Assembly: GCA_003602485.1 (NCBI GenBank)
Contig: QQSD01000014.1
Location: 1-46,389, forward strand
Direction of reading: 5' to 3'
Origin: Candidatus Poseidoniales archaeon
GTDB taxonomy: Archaea > Thermoplasmatota > Poseidoniia > Poseidoniales > Poseidoniaceae
DNA: 46,389 nucleotides
Part shown: positions 2,135 to 10,048 of the stretch, piece after piece
Layout of the letters: each line of letters begins with the position of its first letter
How positions within the stretch are numbered: position 1 is the stretch's first letter
Notes under the pieces: generated by a model
The model's input: the letters and a program-made list of their open reading frames with translations, nothing else
Told to the model about the DNA's origin: nothing
Database searches by the model: none
Position numbers and translations under genes: made by a program

Positions 2135-2953
2135 TCACCCCGTCATTTCTTTGAGCACCTTTGTAACATTTTCACGCCAATCAGCCCCTTCGTTTCGGTT
2201 TGCGAGTGGGCTGGCCGGGCTTGGATGCCAGCAGGTCGTAATCTCGATTTGACGTCCATCAGCGGTTTCTCCAGGTCCTGATTTACCTGCCCCAAAGGCG
2301 CGTCGTGCTCGCTTTTCAGCATAGGCTCCTATCCCCACAATTCGGTTGATGCCCATGATGTTAACAACCTCCCTCAGGTGGTCGTCGCAGGCTTCCAACA
2401 CAGGTTCAATCAGAGCCTTAGGTAACTTGTCGGGAGTGATATTTTGGCCACGTTCACCAAGCAAGAGAAGCGGGCAATGATTGACTACGAACAGGTTTGA
2501 AAATGTCATCTCAGGCGTCCCGTACAAAGTTCGCATCAGCTCCCAGAGACGTCGGCCTGAGACTTCCTGTCGTTCCAGACTCAATCCGACAATCGGTCGC
2601 TTAGGATGGGCATTGGGTGGTGTCTCGAGATGGCGCGCCTCTATGTTCAGAAAGGTCTTGGCCATCTCAGTTGCTCCAAAAGGTACCCCGCTTTGCGCCA
2701 TTCCCCACGGGCCAGGGTTCATGCCCAACAGTAAGGTCTTGGCTCCCAACCCACCCCACTGTTCGATGTATTGTTCATGATGAGGCCAGGCATAATTCAA
2801 CGGGTTGGTTGCATGTGCGGTGTGACCACCCTTCTCAAGACCGGGAATAGCTCGGTCACAAACCGAGGACAATCGTTGGGCGGCGTCCTTTAATTGCTCA
2901 ACGACGCTCACACTTCTGCGACCCATTAGGGTTTGATAGTGCTTCGTACTCAA
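2135..2953 (-). CDS. SMUG1-type uracil-DNA glycosylase
   Basis: This is a base-excision repair glycosylase that removes uracil and oxidised pyrimidines from DNA. The SMUG1 signature GMNPGPWGMAQSGVPFG lies near residues 78-94, NHCPLLLL near 158 and HPSPASPLAN near 245. These are the active-site Asn, the wedge/pocket and the catalytic-His loops of that family. The open frame can start with TTG at 2953, whose codon forms a TTGA overlap with the stop of the upstream surface-protein gene. The first ATG is at 2926 and has no obvious ribosome-binding site. Length (272 aa) is close to animal SMUG1. SMUG1 is best known from animals and scattered bacteria, so its presence here is worth noting but not unprecedented. 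Family assignment is strong; the start is uncertain. Confidence 0.88.
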   Translation of the reverse strand: MSTKHYQTLMGRRSVSVVEQLKDAAQRLSSVCDRAIPGLEKGGHTAHATNPLNYAWPHHEQYIEQWGGLGAKTLLLGMNPGPWGMAQSGVPFGATEMAKTFLNIEARHLETPPNAHPKRPIVGLSLERQEVSGRRLWELMRTLYGTPEMTFSNLFVVNHCPLLLLGERGQNITPDKLPKALIEPVLEACDDHLREVVNIMGINRIVGIGAYAEKRARRAFGAGKSGPGETADGRQIEITTCWHPSPASPLANRNEGADWRENVTKVLKEMTG

Positions 2954-5900
2954 TCATCTTGGCGACGGCTGAGACCCACACCGAAGGCGATGGCAACCAA
3001 GGTCCCCATCATGCTGAGTGAGGGAAGGAGCCCACCTGCGTCTTCGACAACCTCATCAGAACCTGATGGAAGAATAATGGTTGTCGAGATAAATGGTGAG
3101 CTTGAGGCAGCGCCATCGTTTGCAACAACCGAACAGGTAACGGTTTGGCCCACGCCGAAACCACCGGAGAGGGTATCTGAACCAGCCGAGATAATGCTGC
3201 CGTTCACAGCCCATGTGACGATTGTCGTCACTGCATCGCCATCTGAGTCGGTCGTTGAATAACCACAAGTGAGCGTGTCGTCCACGGTGGCAATCAAAGG
3301 TGTGATGATCACATTGGTCACTTCAGGAGGGTTGTTGACGGGTTGAACGCTTGCCTCACATCCGGTTGAGTCAACACTCGCACCGGGGGTTGAGTTCGGG
3401 CAGTAATCATCTGCGTCAAGCACACCATCACCGTCTGCATCAAGGATGGTATTGTTTCCACCAGTATTGTTGCCAGTGCCGTTACCGCCGGTATTGTTTC
3501 CACCAGTATTGTTGCCAGTATTGTTTCCACCTGTATTGTTTCCACCAGTATTGTTGCCAGCGTTGTTTCCACCAGTATTGTTGCCAGTGTTGTTTCCACC
3601 ATTGTTATTGGCGACAATATCGAAAGCATCCGATTCAACGTTCGCTAGCCAGAGGCCATCCAGTTCGAGTTCACCATGCAAATGGTAGCCTACAACTGCG
3701 TCGGGTAAGGTCCAATTCAACGTCATAACTGATACTTCTTGAGTTGCGGTCCAATTCCACCACCCAGAATCGTAGCTTGCTCCGGCATCAATCCAATAGC
3801 GCAATTGATAATTTTCTCCTACCACAGTACAATTCACATAGAAGGTGCCGTATGTTGTTTCGCCCAAAACATATTCAGTTTTGTCCGTCCAAATGGAGAG
3901 TTCTGTGAGGTAACCAGTGGATGTCGTATTGTCAAGACAATCATTTGCGTTGTTTCCACCAGTATTGTTGCCATTGCCGTTACCGCCGGTATTATTTCCA
4001 CTCATGGTCACGTAGGTGAACTGGTGAGATAGACTTGAATTCATCGAATTCGGGCAAGCATGGTATCCATTCGGTCCACAGTTGAGAATCGTGGCGCTAA
4101 AATTCAATGTTACCAACGTGTTATTTTGGACTGATTGATTGAACGATAATTGCCAACCTGAATTGTAGGTGCCGTTTGCCCAAAGAAGGTACCACCAAGT
4201 ATCGGAGAGACCTGAAACTCCGGGAGTATTGGTTGAGGCATTGATTCCGGGGTAATTGATATCAATGCTGCAACTGTTCTCGAGGTCGACAGAGACATAA
4301 TATGAGGAATCAACACTAATATTCCTGAGTTGCAGGCAATGTGCAACGTTGTGCATGCTGTTGTTGCCGCCGGTGTTGTTACCGCCAGTATTGTTACCGC
4401 CGGTATTGTTGCCCATCTGAATCATAGTAGTGTCCGAAGCGATATGTGAACCTTGGTTCACCAATGTTGCATGGAAATAATATACTCCATCAGCTAACCC
4501 GCTTATTGTGCTATTTTCTTGGCTCGTTGTGGAGGAGGCATTCCAGTAGACATTACCTGAGCCATAGACATCAACATTGTATGTTGAATCTGACAAGTTC
4601 CAAATCAGTTGATAATTTTCACCAACCACTAGGTTTCCGCTGGTAAATTCAACATGTACGTCGGTACCTGAATCCCAAACCTCCAGCATGTTGGAAGTTT
4701 CGTAGGCATAGCCCGAATGGTCGATATCTATGTATTCATTAGTATTGTTACCGCCAGTATTCCCTCCGCCACCGCTGGTGTTGCTCAACACGGGGAAACT
4801 GTCGCTATCACTGGTAACGAAGGTGCCGTTTGAATAGAGTTCAACATGGAAGGTGTAATTCCCAGATGGTAGCGAGGTAGCATTCCAAGAGTGCGTGGTT
4901 CCGTTGGACGAAGCCGTCCATGAGTAATTTCCAGAGTCCAAGGTGACGTTGTTGCCATCGTAAATCCAGTAATTCAGCAACATTGTAGAATTGTAAATAG
5001 GACATAGGACATACATCATCGTGTCAATGGATTGGTTCACATTCCCGTAAGACGGTGCGTAAGCAGATAGATCGGTGTAGGCGAGGTCGTAGCCGCAACC
5101 GAGGCTGCCTGGACCGCTGTTGGTATTGTTGTGGACGAAGAAGGAATTCGAGTCGGTATCCAGTACTTCCCACGACATTGACGAGTTGTTGTACCAGGAC
5201 AAAGTAACCTCGAAACTGTAGTTGCCAACACCCACAGATGCGAGTGATGTTGACGTAACATTGTGCCCGTCGTAGGTGTAGAGGGCGGTCCAGTTGAACG
5301 AACCACTGTCAATTGATGAGTTGGTCGCCACTGAGTGAATTGTCCAATCAAGTACCATCGTGGAGTTGGTAATGGAACAGTACGTCGAGATGCTTCCAGT
5401 GAAATTAGAACCGATTTGGTAACCTGATTGGTGAGAATACGCATAAACTGAGGCGGAATTCGGGTCCACTCCACACGGATTGGCGGCTGGAGTGCTGATG
5501 GTGAAATTGACGGTGTCCGTTTCAATTGTTGTCCAAGTTGAACCATCATAGTACTGCAATGTGGCGGTCAAGGTGTAATTGCCCGCTCCGAGTACAGAGG
5601 CTGGACCGGCCCAATTGCCGCTGTAGGACGCATTGGTTCCGCTGTAGGACGCGTTGAGGATGCTGTATGTTGAACCGTTATTTTGATTGGTGAGGGAGGC
5701 AGTGAGGTACATTGAGGTGTTCAAGAGGTCACAATAGGTCGTGACCAAGACACTGACATAATCACTTGTAGAGATGGAGCTGGCCGTGTAGGTATTCATG
5801 GTTGTGTAATTGACGTCGTATCCGCAACCTGAGGTCGAATTGTTTGACCGCGCACCGCTTTCAAAAACAGGACCCTGCCAGTCTTCTTGCTGGTGTTCCA

Positions 5901-5979
5901 CCGGCATCACATAGAGGGCAGCAGACATTGCTTGTACGAGAAGAAGAAGGGCCAATCCACATGCAGTACGGTTGTTCAT
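2950..5979 (-). CDS. Large secreted, sequon-rich surface protein with C-terminal anchor
   Basis: A 1009-residue exported protein of unrecognised family. The N-terminus (MNNRTACGLALLLLVQAMSA) is a signal peptide. It is followed by at least three ~120-residue Ig-like repeats, each opening with CG-Y/V-D and carrying a second Cys about 35 residues later. Gly/Asn/Thr linkers built of NNTGG units join the later domains. Near the C-terminus is a thrombospondin-3-like acidic motif (DADGDGVLDADDYCPN), a PKD/Ig-like domain, and a hydrophobic segment ending in RRQDD that resembles an archaeal sortase-type or simple membrane anchor. The start at 5979 was chosen because the signal peptide begins there; an extension to 6036 is unlikely. 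Dense N-x-S/T sequons imply heavy N-glycosylation (inference). Function unknown; adhesin or S-layer-associated stalk is plausible. Confidence 0.8.
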   Translation of the reverse strand: MNNRTACGLALLLLVQAMSAALYVMPVEHQQEDWQGPVFESGARSNNSTSGCGYDVNYTTMNTYTASSISTSDYVSVLVTTYCDLLNTSMYLTASLTNQNNGSTYSILNASYSGTNASYSGNWAGPASVLGAGNYTLTATLQYYDGSTWTTIETDTVNFTISTPAANPCGVDPNSASVYAYSHQSGYQIGSNFTGSISTYCSITNSTMVLDWTIHSVATNSSIDSGSFNWTALYTYDGHNVTSTSLASVGVGNYSFEVTLSWYNNSSMSWEVLDTDSNSFFVHNNTNSGPGSLGCGYDLAYTDLSAYAPSYGNVNQSIDTMMYVLCPIYNSTMLLNYWIYDGNNVTLDSGNYSWTASSNGTTHSWNATSLPSGNYTFHVELYSNGTFVTSDSDSFPVLSNTSGGGGNTGGNNTNEYIDIDHSGYAYETSNMLEVWDSGTDVHVEFTSGNLVVGENYQLIWNLSDSTYNVDVYGSGNVYWNASSTTSQENSTISGLADGVYYFHATLVNQGSHIASDTTMIQMGNNTGGNNTGGNNTGGNNSMHNVAHCLQLRNISVDSSYYVSVDLENSCSIDINYPGINASTNTPGVSGLSDTWWYLLWANGTYNSGWQLSFNQSVQNNTLVTLNFSATILNCGPNGYHACPNSMNSSLSHQFTYVTMSGNNTGGNGNGNNTGGNNANDCLDNTTSTGYLTELSIWTDKTEYVLGETTYGTFYVNCTVVGENYQLRYWIDAGASYDSGWWNWTATQEVSVMTLNWTLPDAVVGYHLHGELELDGLWLANVESDAFDIVANNNGGNNTGNNTGGNNAGNNTGGNNTGGNNTGNNTGGNNTGGNGTGNNTGGNNTILDADGDGVLDADDYCPNSTPGASVDSTGCEASVQPVNNPPEVTNVIITPLIATVDDTLTCGYSTTDSDGDAVTTIVTWAVNGSIISAGSDTLSGGFGVGQTVTCSVVANDGAASSSPFISTTIILPSGSDEVVEDAGGLLPSLSMMGTLVAIAFGVGLSRRQDD
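3450..3612 (-). repeat. Imperfect 15-bp tandem repeats encoding NNTGG linker
   Basis: About ten copies of a degenerate 15-base unit (on the plus strand roughly ACCAGTATTGTTGCC / ACCGGTATTGTTTCC) encode tandem NNTGG, NNTG and NGTG units. Smaller clusters of the same unit occur at about 3949-4000, 4363-4413 and 4738-4765 in the same gene. All copies keep the reading frame, so the array is protein-coding. It is also a likely site of copy-number change. Confidence 0.85.
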
Positions 5980-6057
5980 GGATTTATGGGAGGGCCTGAG
6001 GGTCTTTGTTCTATCGGGCGTGCTTGAAAATAGCAATAACTCACATTGAATGCGCTG

Positions 6058-7848
6058 TTATTCATCCTGCATATCGGCCGAGAAAAAGGGTTCGAAGGAG
6101 TCTTTGTAGGGTATATTCGCTGTATTGAACCAGTCTTCTACGCAACTGTAGGGAAAAGGGTCGCCCTTTTTTCGCTGTGTCCGTACACGGGTGCTGATGA
6201 GGTTCCACGCTGATTTATCCCCAATTCCCGGAATAGCGGCTAGTTGCTTTTCCGTGATGTTTTTCGGATTGAGTCCAAGTTCAACACCGGTAATTGAACG
6301 GGCACCATGGCCCGTGATAACGATGTCAGATTGTGTTTCGAGAGGAATTTTGTACTTCACTCCAACGAGGATTGGATAGGCTCCAATTTGCCGACCAAAG
6401 GTGATTCCTGCTTTCCCGTGGACGGCCAATTCTCTATGGGCGCTTCCGTGATGTGCTGGTAGGCGAGTGCGACCGTCGTGTGCTTCCCAGTGAATGTCAC
6501 GCAGGGTTCCGCCAAGGGGAAATAATTCTTGGAGCAACGGACGGTCAATCTCTTCTCTGCATTCTGCCTTGAAAGCCGTGAATGCATCAGGGGGAATCTC
6601 CTGAAAGCCCTCCCCTTCTACTTGACGAATATTGATTCGACGAAGCAAAAGGCCTTCAGAGCGTATGTCACGTAACAGGTCCATGTTCATACTGTAGGTG
6701 GCCTTTGTTTCACCGTTGAGGCCAGCGATAAAGTTGAGGCCAGGCAGGAGTTTTGGCAAACCTCGTTCACCGCGTTCTCGTCCGTATTGATTGATCAAAC
6801 GAATGGCCGCTTTCAATTGGGCCGGGTCGCAATTCAACCAATTCGCTTCATGGACGCTCGGGTCGGCAGATTCCAGCCCAAAGGACAACACTGCACCATC
6901 GGATAAGGTTTCAACAAGCGTCTTGGTGATCGCTTCTGACTGCTCGAGATTCTCTGCGATAATGGATGGATTCCCATTGTCGGTATGGAGAATTCCCAGT
7001 CGTTCATCATCTCTCAAACCATGGAGGAGCTGTGCGATGGGCTCAGGGTTTGGAATGGGGTATTCAAGTTCCTTCACACCCTCTGCCATGTAGGTGTAGG
7101 TGTCGGTCATACCGCCCAGACGTACGTGCTGTACTCCAGAATCGTGGGCGAGTTTGACTTCTTGGATGATGTCTTCAGGCGTCCGCCAAATTGGAACACC
7201 TTTTTTTGGTTCAATGCAGAACTTACAACCACGTTTGTAGCGCACACATCCCTGGTAGACTTCAACTTCGTAGGTAAGTGGGCCAGGCCGTTCAGGAGTC
7301 GCTAAATCGGGATGAAGGGTCACAGCCTGACTGGTAGCGCCAGCGTGAGCCCACGCAGTCCACTGTTCCGCAGTTCGTCGTTGATGTTTCCATTCTTGTT
7401 TGGTGAGGTAGTGGTTGAGCGTTGCATCCGTGTCTTGAACGGCGAGGAAAAGATTGGCTCGTAGCGGAGTCCATCCTTGTTGCTTCCAGCCTCGAATGGC
7501 CCATCCTCCGAAAAGGGCAGGCATGCCAGAAGGAAGGCTGCGAATGAACTCCTGAGTTTCCCGCAGTGAAATCGGAGCGCCTCGCAGATATTTCCCCGGG
7601 ACAACCGCACCTGCAATGCAGATGCAGCCAAGTTGAGTGCTAATCCATCGGTTCATCCCCTCAGGGTCTTGTCTTTTTTGCTGTCTGAACTGGTCGATGG
7701 TCATGTAGGTGTAGGGGACGTTGTGTTGTTCAAGTACACCGCAGACATAGCGGATGTGGAAGCCAACGTAGGGCGGTACACCGAAGGCCGCAGGCTCATC
7801 TTCATATCCGTCCAAGACCAACCACGTCGGTTCGGAGGGTTCAACCAT
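6058..7848 (-). CDS. Radical SAM protein with C-terminal helix-hairpin-helix (COG1031 type)
   Basis: A predicted Fe-S radical-SAM enzyme of unknown substrate. The N-terminus (LDGYEDEPAAFGVPPYVG) matches the start typical of the COG1031 family. The cluster motif near residues 200-210 is C-V-R-Y-K-R-G-C-K-F-C, a CX6CX2C spacing rather than the classic CX3CX2C. It is followed by EP and a Gly-rich HVRLGG strand. A helix-hairpin-helix (AAIPGIGDKSAWNLIS) lies close to the C-terminus and suggests nucleic-acid contact. I chose the ATG at 7848 because the conserved fold begins there; the longer frame to 8115 would overlap the upstream Csl4-RRM gene. The 25-base gap to that gene suggests cotranscription, and thus an RNA-linked role (inference). 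Confidence 0.85.
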   Translation of the reverse strand: MVEPSEPTWLVLDGYEDEPAAFGVPPYVGFHIRYVCGVLEQHNVPYTYMTIDQFRQQKRQDPEGMNRWISTQLGCICIAGAVVPGKYLRGAPISLRETQEFIRSLPSGMPALFGGWAIRGWKQQGWTPLRANLFLAVQDTDATLNHYLTKQEWKHQRRTAEQWTAWAHAGATSQAVTLHPDLATPERPGPLTYEVEVYQGCVRYKRGCKFCIEPKKGVPIWRTPEDIIQEVKLAHDSGVQHVRLGGMTDTYTYMAEGVKELEYPIPNPEPIAQLLHGLRDDERLGILHTDNGNPSIIAENLEQSEAITKTLVETLSDGAVLSFGLESADPSVHEANWLNCDPAQLKAAIRLINQYGRERGERGLPKLLPGLNFIAGLNGETKATYSMNMDLLRDIRSEGLLLRRINIRQVEGEGFQEIPPDAFTAFKAECREEIDRPLLQELFPLGGTLRDIHWEAHDGRTRLPAHHGSAHRELAVHGKAGITFGRQIGAYPILVGVKYKIPLETQSDIVITGHGARSITGVELGLNPKNITEKQLAAIPGIGDKSAWNLISTRVRTQRKKGDPFPYSCVEDWFNTANIPYKDSFEPFFSADMQDE

Positions 7849-7873
7849 AGTTGAAGCGAGGCAACGAGCCCCT

Positions 7874-9289
7874 TCAATCCTTCTTCGGGCGAGAGCGGCG
7901 TTTTCGCTTCTTTCCACCCTCTTCTTCTTCTCGGAGAGCTTGCATTTCTCGGGAGGACTTTCCACCCTTGTTTCCGTCTCGGCCACGGTCTCCGCCTTTG
8001 CCACCTTTGGCTTTGGCAATGTCGACCTTGATGCGTCGGCCATTAATTTCGCTGTTGTTGAGTGCACCGACGACTGCTTCGCCCTTGTCTTTTTCTTGGA
8101 TGAATACAAATCCAAAGCCCTTGGGTTTCCCGCCTGGACCGGTTGCGAGGATTACTTCGTTGACAGTAGCATGATCTCCAACCATTTTGGTGAGTTGCTC
8201 GCTGGTGGTCGTAAAGGGCAGATTACCGATGTAGAGTTTGAGGCCTTGAGGCTCTTTTCGTTCTCGCTTATTACCCTTCTTTTTGTCGTCGTCAGCATCA
8301 CGCACACCGATACGACGGCCGTTGATGCGATGTCCGTCAAGAGCGCTGGTGGCTGCTTCTGCCATGGCCTTGTCAGCGTAGGTGACGAAGCCAAAGCCCC
8401 GGTTCACGCCAGCATCATCCGTGAGTACGATACAGTCGGTCATGTCGCCGTGCTTGGTAAAGAGGTCGCGTAGTTCATCGGTTCCTATCTCACGAGGGAG
8501 TCCACCGACGAAGAGTCGTGTACCCGGCGCTGCACGTTGTTGACGTCCACGTCCTCCACCGGTTTGACCTTCAAACCTGAAGTAGGTACGTTCACGACCG
8601 TCTTCTCGAACATCTGCTGCGATGAAGGTTGCACGACCTGCGGGTCCTTTTGCAAACATGGCTTCAGCAGCAGCTCCCCATCGCTTTCCAGAATTGTTGA
8701 GGCTGCTTGCTCCTTGGTCAAGTTCAGCCCAACCTGCTCCAAAATTGTCGGCAAGAGCACGATACGATTGATAGCCACATGTTGGGCAGAGAACGTTCCA
8801 GTCTCCGTCGAGGTGGGCCTCGAGCGTATCACCACAAGGCGGGCAAATAGCGTGAAGAACGCCACAGTCATCACGTTCTCGGAAATCGAGACGAACGACC
8901 GGTTCAACTTCTTTGATGACTGCACGGCAAACGTCACGACGACGGAGTGCGTCGGATGTTTGGTGCATGAATCGGTCAACCAAACCGGTGACGAAGAATT
9001 GGCCGTAGAGGTGTTGGGGTTGGATAGAACCGGGTTTTCCTTCAATGCAAAGGACCATTGCCTCACCGTGCTTCTCGTTGAGTTTCACAACTTCACAAAG
9101 AACGGTGTCGCCAACCTCAGGCGAAACGATGAGCTTCGAGGCAGTGACGTTGATGGTACCTTCGTTGACATGGACGTAACCTACCACCGTTGAGATGATG
9201 TTTCCGTCATGAACTGAGGTACCCTCGCCTTGTTCGTGTTGGCCTTCCTGGCCGATGATGCTTCCTGGGGTGACGAGGCTCGCCGTCAT
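7874..9289 (-). CDS. csl4: Csl4-like exosome subunit fused to two RRM domains
   Basis: Residues 1-175 look like archaeal exosome Csl4: an N-terminal beta domain (TPGSIIGQ...GEGTSV), an S1-like barrel, and a zinc ribbon with C-P-P-C near 149-152 and C-P-T-C near 168-171. After a ~75-residue linker come two RNA-recognition motifs. The first has RNP2 LFVGGL near 259 and RNP1 RGFGFVTY near 297; the second has LYIGNL near 352 and KGFGFVFI near 390. A Lys/Arg-rich tail ends the 471-residue protein. Archaeal Csl4 is normally about 180-200 residues and caps the RNA-degrading exosome, so the RRMs more than double it. The ATG at 9289 has AAAGGA eight to nine bases upstream; an ATG at 9298 abuts that site and is less likely. 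Frame is continuous, so this is a genuine fusion. Confidence 0.88.
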   Translation of the reverse strand: MTASLVTPGSIIGQEGQHEQGEGTSVHDGNIISTVVGYVHVNEGTINVTASKLIVSPEVGDTVLCEVVKLNEKHGEAMVLCIEGKPGSIQPQHLYGQFFVTGLVDRFMHQTSDALRRRDVCRAVIKEVEPVVRLDFRERDDCGVLHAICPPCGDTLEAHLDGDWNVLCPTCGYQSYRALADNFGAGWAELDQGASSLNNSGKRWGAAAEAMFAKGPAGRATFIAADVREDGRERTYFRFEGQTGGGRGRQQRAAPGTRLFVGGLPREIGTDELRDLFTKHGDMTDCIVLTDDAGVNRGFGFVTYADKAMAEAATSALDGHRINGRRIGVRDADDDKKKGNKRERKEPQGLKLYIGNLPFTTTSEQLTKMVGDHATVNEVILATGPGGKPKGFGFVFIQEKDKGEAVVGALNNSEINGRRIKVDIAKAKGGKGGDRGRDGNKGGKSSREMQALREEEEGGKKRKRRSRPKKD

Positions 9290-9388
9290 TGTAATCATTC
9301 CTTTGCGTCGTGGCTCGGTATGAGTCGCACGCTGTTTCGCTAATTGTAGGCGAGGGCTCCTTCCTTTTCAACCCCCCTTACGGGTGGG
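9290..9388. other. Intergenic gap between METTL5-like and Csl4-RRM genes
   Basis: About 100 bases separate these two minus-strand genes, the largest gap inside the left cluster. It contains a weak C-rich/G-rich inverted stretch (CCCACCCGTAAGGGGGG on the minus strand) just after the METTL5 stop and an AAAGGA ribosome-binding site near 9300. No convincing TATA box is visible, so I cannot say whether Csl4-RRM has its own promoter. Confidence 0.4.
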
Positions 9389-10048
9389 CTAGGATTCTTC
9401 TTTGGGCAGGCGGGCATCACCGGGTCTGTGAAAACGCCAGCACATGACATCGGTATCTCCGCGTCGCTGGCTATGGTGCATGTAGGTAGGAGGCAATCTG
9501 AATACAGTGCGTATGATGTGTTCCCACTCCCACCCTCGGTCCTTCGCAAGGGGTTCAATGTGGGCTGCTTTCTCGCTATGCAGAACGTGGATAGCAGAGG
9601 CATCTGAACGAAAAGCGAGTTCCAAAAACGGGCGGTCGGCTTTGGCTGTTTGAACGCCCCAAGGGGGGTTCATGACGAGCAGGTCAACGGACTCAAGTTC
9701 AACCTCGTCACGGCCAATGTGTGCGTTGACGACTTCGGCTTGTGCCATCAATGCTTTATCGAGAGTGTTGAGATTCGAATGTAAAATCTCCAGGGCGTCC
9801 TTGTCCGTTTCCACAAAGGTTACTTTCCGTGCGCCCAAAAGGAGAGCAGCAATTCCTAAAATGCCATTTCCGCTTCCTAAGTCAACAACGTGCCGGTCTT
9901 CAAAACCATCAGTTTGGTCAATGGCGAGCATCCAAAACGCTGCAAGGTCGCCTTCTGTTGCGTATTGCTCAAGCTCAACGCGCAAGCATGGGTGCGGCGC
10001 TAAACGGGAGAGTTGAATCGCCAGATGCTTTGGACGCATGCACCTCAC
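9389..10048 (-). CDS. METTL5-like RNA N6-adenine methyltransferase
   Basis: A class I SAM-dependent methylase of the COG2263/METTL5 group, which in eukaryotes methylates one adenine of small-subunit rRNA. Motif I is VVDLGSGNGILGIAA near residues 68-82. The amino-methylating motif IV is NPPWG near 131-135, and the family-specific LEQYATEGDLAAFWM lies near 26-40. Length (219 aa) is normal. The GTG start at 10048 forms a GTGA overlap with the stop of the upstream zinc-ribbon gene; an ATG at 10039 is the alternative. The coupling to a zinc-binding microprotein is notable because human METTL5 needs the zinc protein TRMT112 for stability. rRNA as the target is inferred from family. Confidence 0.85.
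   Translation of the reverse strand: MRCMRPKHLAIQLSRLAPHPCLRVELEQYATEGDLAAFWMLAIDQTDGFEDRHVVDLGSGNGILGIAALLLGARKVTFVETDKDALEILHSNLNTLDKALMAQAEVVNAHIGRDEVELESVDLLVMNPPWGVQTAKADRPFLELAFRSDASAIHVLHSEKAAHIEPLAKDRGWEWEHIIRTVFRLPPTYMHHSQRRGDTDVMCWRFHRPGDARLPKEES

Follow-up and report, generated by a model that had tools for sequence, protein, structure and literature searches.

Fusion of the exosome cap protein Csl4 to RRM domains in Poseidoniales archaea and its probable role as an RNA-capture arm

The window, by which we mean the whole stretch of 46,389 nucleotides that was analyzed, is one contig (C6; GenBank QQSD01000014.1) of a draft genome of Candidatus Poseidoniales archaeon (GCA_003602485.1; 1.78 Mb, 97 contigs, 79.8% complete). 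A gene joining csl4 to two RRM domains lies on its minus strand between two conserved neighbors. The genes and the parts of the fusion, in window coordinates, are as follows.

9389-10048, minus strand: METTL5-like methyltransferase gene, the conserved upstream neighbor (PDB matches, synteny)
7874-9289, minus strand: csl4-RRM fusion gene, 471 amino acids plus stop codon (profile matches and alignment of relatives)
9125-9289, minus strand: Csl4 N-terminal domain, residues 1-55, the expected Rrp41/Rrp42 ring anchor (Pfam ECR1_N)
8870-9124, minus strand: Csl4 S1 (OB-fold) domain, residues 56-140 (NF034126 match; models match 2ba1_A)
8741-8869, minus strand: Csl4 zinc ribbon, residues 141-183, with cysteines 149, 152, 168 and 171
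8525-8740, minus strand: linker, residues 184-255, with the motif LNxxGKRWGxxAE...GPxxR...ADxRxDG; its C-terminal part is Gly/Arg-rich and of low model confidence
8288-8521, minus strand: RRM1, residues 257-334, with RNP2 LFVGGL and RNP1 RGFGFVTY (297)
8009-8242, minus strand: RRM2, residues 350-427, with RNP2 LYIGNL and RNP1 KGFGFVFI (390)
7877-8008, minus strand: basic tail, residues 428-471, with a conserved SSRExxAxxEE and a short predicted helix at 446-457
6058-7851, minus strand: radical SAM protein gene, the conserved downstream neighbor in fusion-bearing genomes

An earlier note on this DNA had described Csl4, two RRMs and a basic tail in one unbroken frame, and this description was borne out by an uninterrupted ORF and by profile matches. 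The frame is open from position 9298 to the stop codon at 7874-7876 (ORF list), and the ATG at 9289 is the likely start, since relatives align from the same methionine. From the N terminus, the protein consists of Csl4, with its N-terminal domain, S1 fold and zinc ribbon; the linker, which is conserved; RRM1 and RRM2; and the basic tail. The likely ATG of the radical SAM gene lies 22 nucleotides past the fusion's stop codon, and the product of the METTL5-like gene matched PDB entries 1wy7 (E = 1.2e-26) and 6h2u, METTL5 (E = 3e-19). Beyond the radical SAM gene, at 2950-6036, is a 1028-amino-acid ORF rich in Asn, Thr and Gly, in which NNTGG stretches recur and the C-terminal end is hydrophobic; it probably encodes a surface protein.

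Residues 5 to 183 matched the NCBIfam Csl4 equivalog NF034126 at 94 bits (cut-off, 90 bits), a model against which some relatives score just under the cut-off (e.g., 85.1 bits in genome G166), and residues 5 to 41 matched Pfam ECR1_N at 39 bits (cut-off, 27 bits). The zinc ribbon cysteines are intact in the motif CPPC...CPTC, which spans residues 149 to 171. A profile of the Csl4 part matched Archaeoglobus fulgidus Csl4 (2ba1_A; E = 3.3e-40) ahead of human Csl4 chains. Structure prediction of this part, which the earlier note had proposed, again led to archaeal Csl4: 2ba1_A was the top Foldseek match in the PDB for both AlphaFold models (E = 1.9e-15 and 1.3e-14), and the full model also matched the tandem RRMs of Sex-lethal, HuD and HuR. 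The Csl4 and RRM folds were predicted with confidence (pLDDT mostly 75 to 93); low-confidence regions were residues 220-255 (pLDDT below 50), 335-345, 427-444 and 457-471. A. fulgidus Csl4 (AF_0206, PDB 2BA1 chain A) thus has the same domain order as residues 1-183 of the fusion, whereas the fusion has some 290 additional C-terminal residues, comprising the linker, two RRMs and the basic tail. Both RRMs were recognized by profile (two stretches matching Pfam RRM_1, PF00076, at E = 1.6e-31), by RNP1 and RNP2 motifs and by fold. The nearest NCBIfam family to RRM1 was NF058537 (Rbp_regulator), a family of small stand-alone RRM proteins, to which RRM1 scored 93.9 bits, under the cut-off of 100. 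Unlike those proteins, the RRM of the fusion is part of a larger protein, is tandem in the window's family and stands apart in the RRM tree described below.

To survey the distribution of the fusion, Csl4 and RRM profile searches took in 293 genomes of the class. The window's family and its sister family both belong to the order Poseidoniales (Marine Group II), and a sister order served for comparison. In both Poseidoniales families, the listed Csl4 places lay in long open frames, mostly of 424 to 615 amino acids, so that the fusion is conserved in the clade, which the earlier note had named as support. In the sister order, Csl4 is a separate gene, mostly of 185 to 214 amino acids (two stop-to-stop frames were of 235 and 294), which fits the note's statement that Csl4 is usually under 200 residues. 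Two RRMs were found in nearly every genome of the window's family and one in nearly every genome of the sister family, in frames of fusion length, and each genome of the sister order had one RRM in its own frame of 85 to 105 amino acids. The window's draft genome has one Csl4, and its RRMs are confined to the fusion protein. In the phylum as a whole, Poseidoniales were the only order in which fused RRMs were observed, and the other listed RRMs lay in frames of 81 to 158 amino acids. The note's remark that RRMs are rare in archaea holds insofar as they are uncommon; free-standing RRM proteins of small size are nonetheless present in the sister order and scattered through the phylum. Among 38 high-quality genomes, only G042 had no RRM; it also gave no match of Csl4 strength, the pattern expected of an assembly gap. 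A separate, divergent RRM protein was encoded in one genome of the window's family (L060:1795-2097; G080:C15), possibly on a eukaryotic contaminant contig.

A fragmented and incomplete draft such as the window's genome leaves room for an assembly chimera or contamination, but the architecture recurs in two families, in genomes independent of one another, among them the one-contig genome CM001443 and probable single-cell genomes, and the short exceptions inspected in these families stop at a contig edge or hold ambiguous bases. A chimera is refuted by this recurrence, and an artifact of either kind is exceedingly improbable.

A separate full-length Csl4, which the earlier note held would speak against an exosome role, was looked for in 11 well-assembled Poseidoniales genomes carrying the fusion (one of them a single contig) and was not found. 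Each gave a single strong Csl4 match, located in a frame open for 423 to 598 amino acids. The next-best place for the Csl4 profile, considered as a hidden second Csl4, was identified in all 11 as Rrp4 by its own model; two of the genomes also gave a very weak, S1-only match. The METTL5-like gene lies directly upstream of the fusion in both families and directly upstream of stand-alone Csl4 in the sister order, which indicates that the fusion is the positional counterpart of an ordinary Csl4.

The remaining exosome genes, Rrp4, Rrp41 and Rrp42, are present in relatives carrying the fusion, and psmA, SBDS, rrp4, rrp41 and rrp42 follow one another in the one-contig genome. Rrp41 and Rrp42 were not found in the window's draft, in which the contig breaks after psmA, SBDS and a partial rrp4, so that their absence is probably an assembly gap. 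Besides Rrp41 and Rrp42, a third gene with an RNase PH domain is usual in fusion genomes (L036, G000:C76:22980-23369, and relatives), and only two such genes were present in the four genomes of the sister order that were searched. The third gene was considered as an exosome ring subunit, and this was ruled out because it is a bacterial-type RNase PH (TIGR01966, 247.7 bits against a cut-off of 141.5). DnaG was found in 31 of 33 genomes searched, including the window's, and weak matches to the DnaG C-terminal region were obtained in many. This retention rules out that the RRM arm replaces DnaG; the arm would instead add to a known RNA-binding platform.

Selection on the fusion was examined by codon comparison of the window gene with seven relatives, and values are given where synonymous change was unsaturated. 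Every segment is under purifying selection. The dN/dS ratio was about 0.01 to 0.15 for the S1 domain, zinc ribbon, linker, both RRMs and tail, with 0.04 to 0.10 for the linker where calculable and 0.007 to 0.08 for RRM1. The N-terminal domain gave 0.07 to 0.30 and, of the folded parts, was in several comparisons the one conserved least. Its identity to A. fulgidus Csl4 is 26% in the window protein versus 44% in the sister order, and the motif EYxxGxGVYE, which A. fulgidus and the sister order retain, has been lost. In the window protein, the fold and the glycine skeleton of the domain are preserved and ECR1_N is matched above its cut-off, yet the domain has diverged; a match to ECR1_N was absent from proteins of the sister family and was below the cut-off or absent in several relatives. 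The N-terminal domain of Rrp4 in the one-contig genome has also diverged (ECR1_N, 13.7 bits), and the whole cap may therefore have coevolved, with the divergence of the anchor as one part of that process. We take the divergence as a reason to test complex membership, not as evidence that membership was lost.

The diverged anchor nonetheless bears on an alternative that the earlier note had raised, namely, that the protein has left the exosome and acts as a free RNA chaperone or regulator, with the exosome capped by Rrp4 only, as in DPANN cluster 2. Archaea of that cluster have no Csl4, and exosomes without Csl4 occur in some archaea (PMC7414124). In Poseidoniales, however, no genome examined has a Csl4 other than the fusion, and the better-assembled relatives encode the complete set of other exosome genes as well. 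Its S1 domain, zinc ribbon and anchor fold are kept and constrained, and it stays next to the METTL5-like gene, as ordinary Csl4 does. DnaG, which in Sulfolobus needs Csl4 for exosome binding (PMC4227792, PMC7667871), is also retained. We therefore regard departure from the exosome as unlikely. As for the exosome role itself, the conserved fusion and the lack of a separate Csl4 speak for it, and the divergence of the N-terminal domain, though its fold is kept, may count against it.

The fusions of the two families differ in layout. That of the window's family comprises Csl4, linker, RRM1, RRM2 and the tail with SSRExxAxxEE; that of the sister family comprises Csl4, a similar linker, a CxxC-x17-CxxC zinc finger (PF23477), a single RRM and an Arg/Gly-rich tail. 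The finger was present between linker and RRM in 12 of 12 proteins examined from the sister family (loci L034, L042-L044 and L048-L055), compared with 0 of 22 from the window's family. In one fusion of the window's family (L059, genome G080), the CxxC pairs of the Csl4 zinc ribbon have been lost. Both families have the linker motif in common, and stand-alone Csl4 of the sister order does not have it; this comparison of sequences favors a single origin of the C-terminal extension, before the two families separated. In the RRM tree, RRM1 of the window's family and the RRM of the sister family fell on a common branch (100/97), with four RRM2 copies also inside, and the free RRMs of the sister order and the phylum formed one side of a branch (99/96) apart from the fused RRMs. 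As to the ancestry of the tandem pair, RRM2 copies did not form one group and several long branches met. The fused RRM may or may not derive directly from the free RRM.

Taken together, these data make it probable that the Poseidoniales exosome has the fusion as its true and sole Csl4 and that this protein bears a flexible C-terminal arm for RNA capture. The N-terminal domain, which is the main anchor of Csl4 (PMC4227792), would hold the protein on the Rrp41/Rrp42 ring, with the S1 domain at the RNA entry; the linker would let the RRM pair and basic tail extend outward, where they would catch single-stranded RNA and pass its 3' end to the pore. With such an arm, the natural fusion would have the layout of a protein that has been engineered. 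In Csl4-NT of Sulfolobus solfataricus (PMC4227792), Csl4 likewise carries an RNA-binding domain at its C terminus, the end distant from the ring anchor; Csl4-NT, however, is laboratory-made and joins full-length Csl4 to the N-terminal domain of DnaG, with its poly(A) preference, whereas the Poseidoniales fusion is natural and uses RRMs. The engineered protein gained poly(A) binding, and exosomes built with it broke down A-rich RNA more rapidly than did the Csl4 exosome, whether or not DnaG was present (PMC4227792, PMC7667871).

What such an arm would do can be read in two ways. It might be a general, sequence-blind clamp that raises exosome affinity and processivity, for example on structured RNA at low temperature, without choosing transcripts; this is a narrower version of the capture arm, and confidence in the two overlaps. 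We consider the clamp a serious possibility, at somewhat below even chances. The basic tails and Gly/Arg-rich stretches fit nonspecific binding, the number and type of extra domains vary between the families, and added affinity alone speeds decay in the engineered Csl4 fusion (PMC4227792). The constraint on RRM1 (dN/dS, 0.007 to 0.08), on the other hand, exceeds the need of a sticky patch, though it is no proof of sequence choice. Alternatively, and tentatively, the exosome might be transcript-selective, with the RRM pair (in the sister family, the zinc finger and the RRM) reading defined RNA sequences and sending those transcripts to decay. Sequence choice and a sequence-blind clamp appear about equally likely.

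Some RRMs bind proteins. The RRMs of the fusion might accordingly serve for docking, tying the exosome to a second machine (for instance, the ribosome or an RNA helicase), and not for RNA binding, a reading to which the altered RNP1 of RRM2 in some genera (KAFAFVTI) lends weight. The RNP1 phenylalanines of both RRMs were nevertheless invariant in an alignment of 20 sequences, and docking seems rather improbable.

RBM7 of the NEXT complex is an RRM protein that targets the eukaryotic exosome as a separate cofactor. The capture arm proposed here resembles it in that an RRM would deliver RNA to the exosome; it differs in that the RRM is covalently part of the cap. If the Poseidoniales exosome is selective, archaea would have in it an integral equivalent of the separate RRM cofactors of eukaryotes, one that arose when an RRM gene was joined to Csl4. 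To our knowledge, substrate choice by archaeal exosomes is largely uncharted. Full-text searches of a literature collection with few subscription papers returned no report of a Csl4-RRM fusion, which is weak evidence of novelty. Common uncultured archaea of the surface ocean thus appear to hard-wire an RNA-binding module into the exosome cap, while their relatives keep two genes. This contrast of fused and free forms, with one testable protein, offers a means of asking whether the specificity of an exosome depends on the RNA-binding domains added to it. By the usual logic of gene fusions, small RRM proteins that stand free in other archaea may also act together with RNA decay. In the sister order, the ORFs around the free RRM gene at three loci included no exosome gene; the product of that gene scored 110.9 to 116.4 bits to NF058537.
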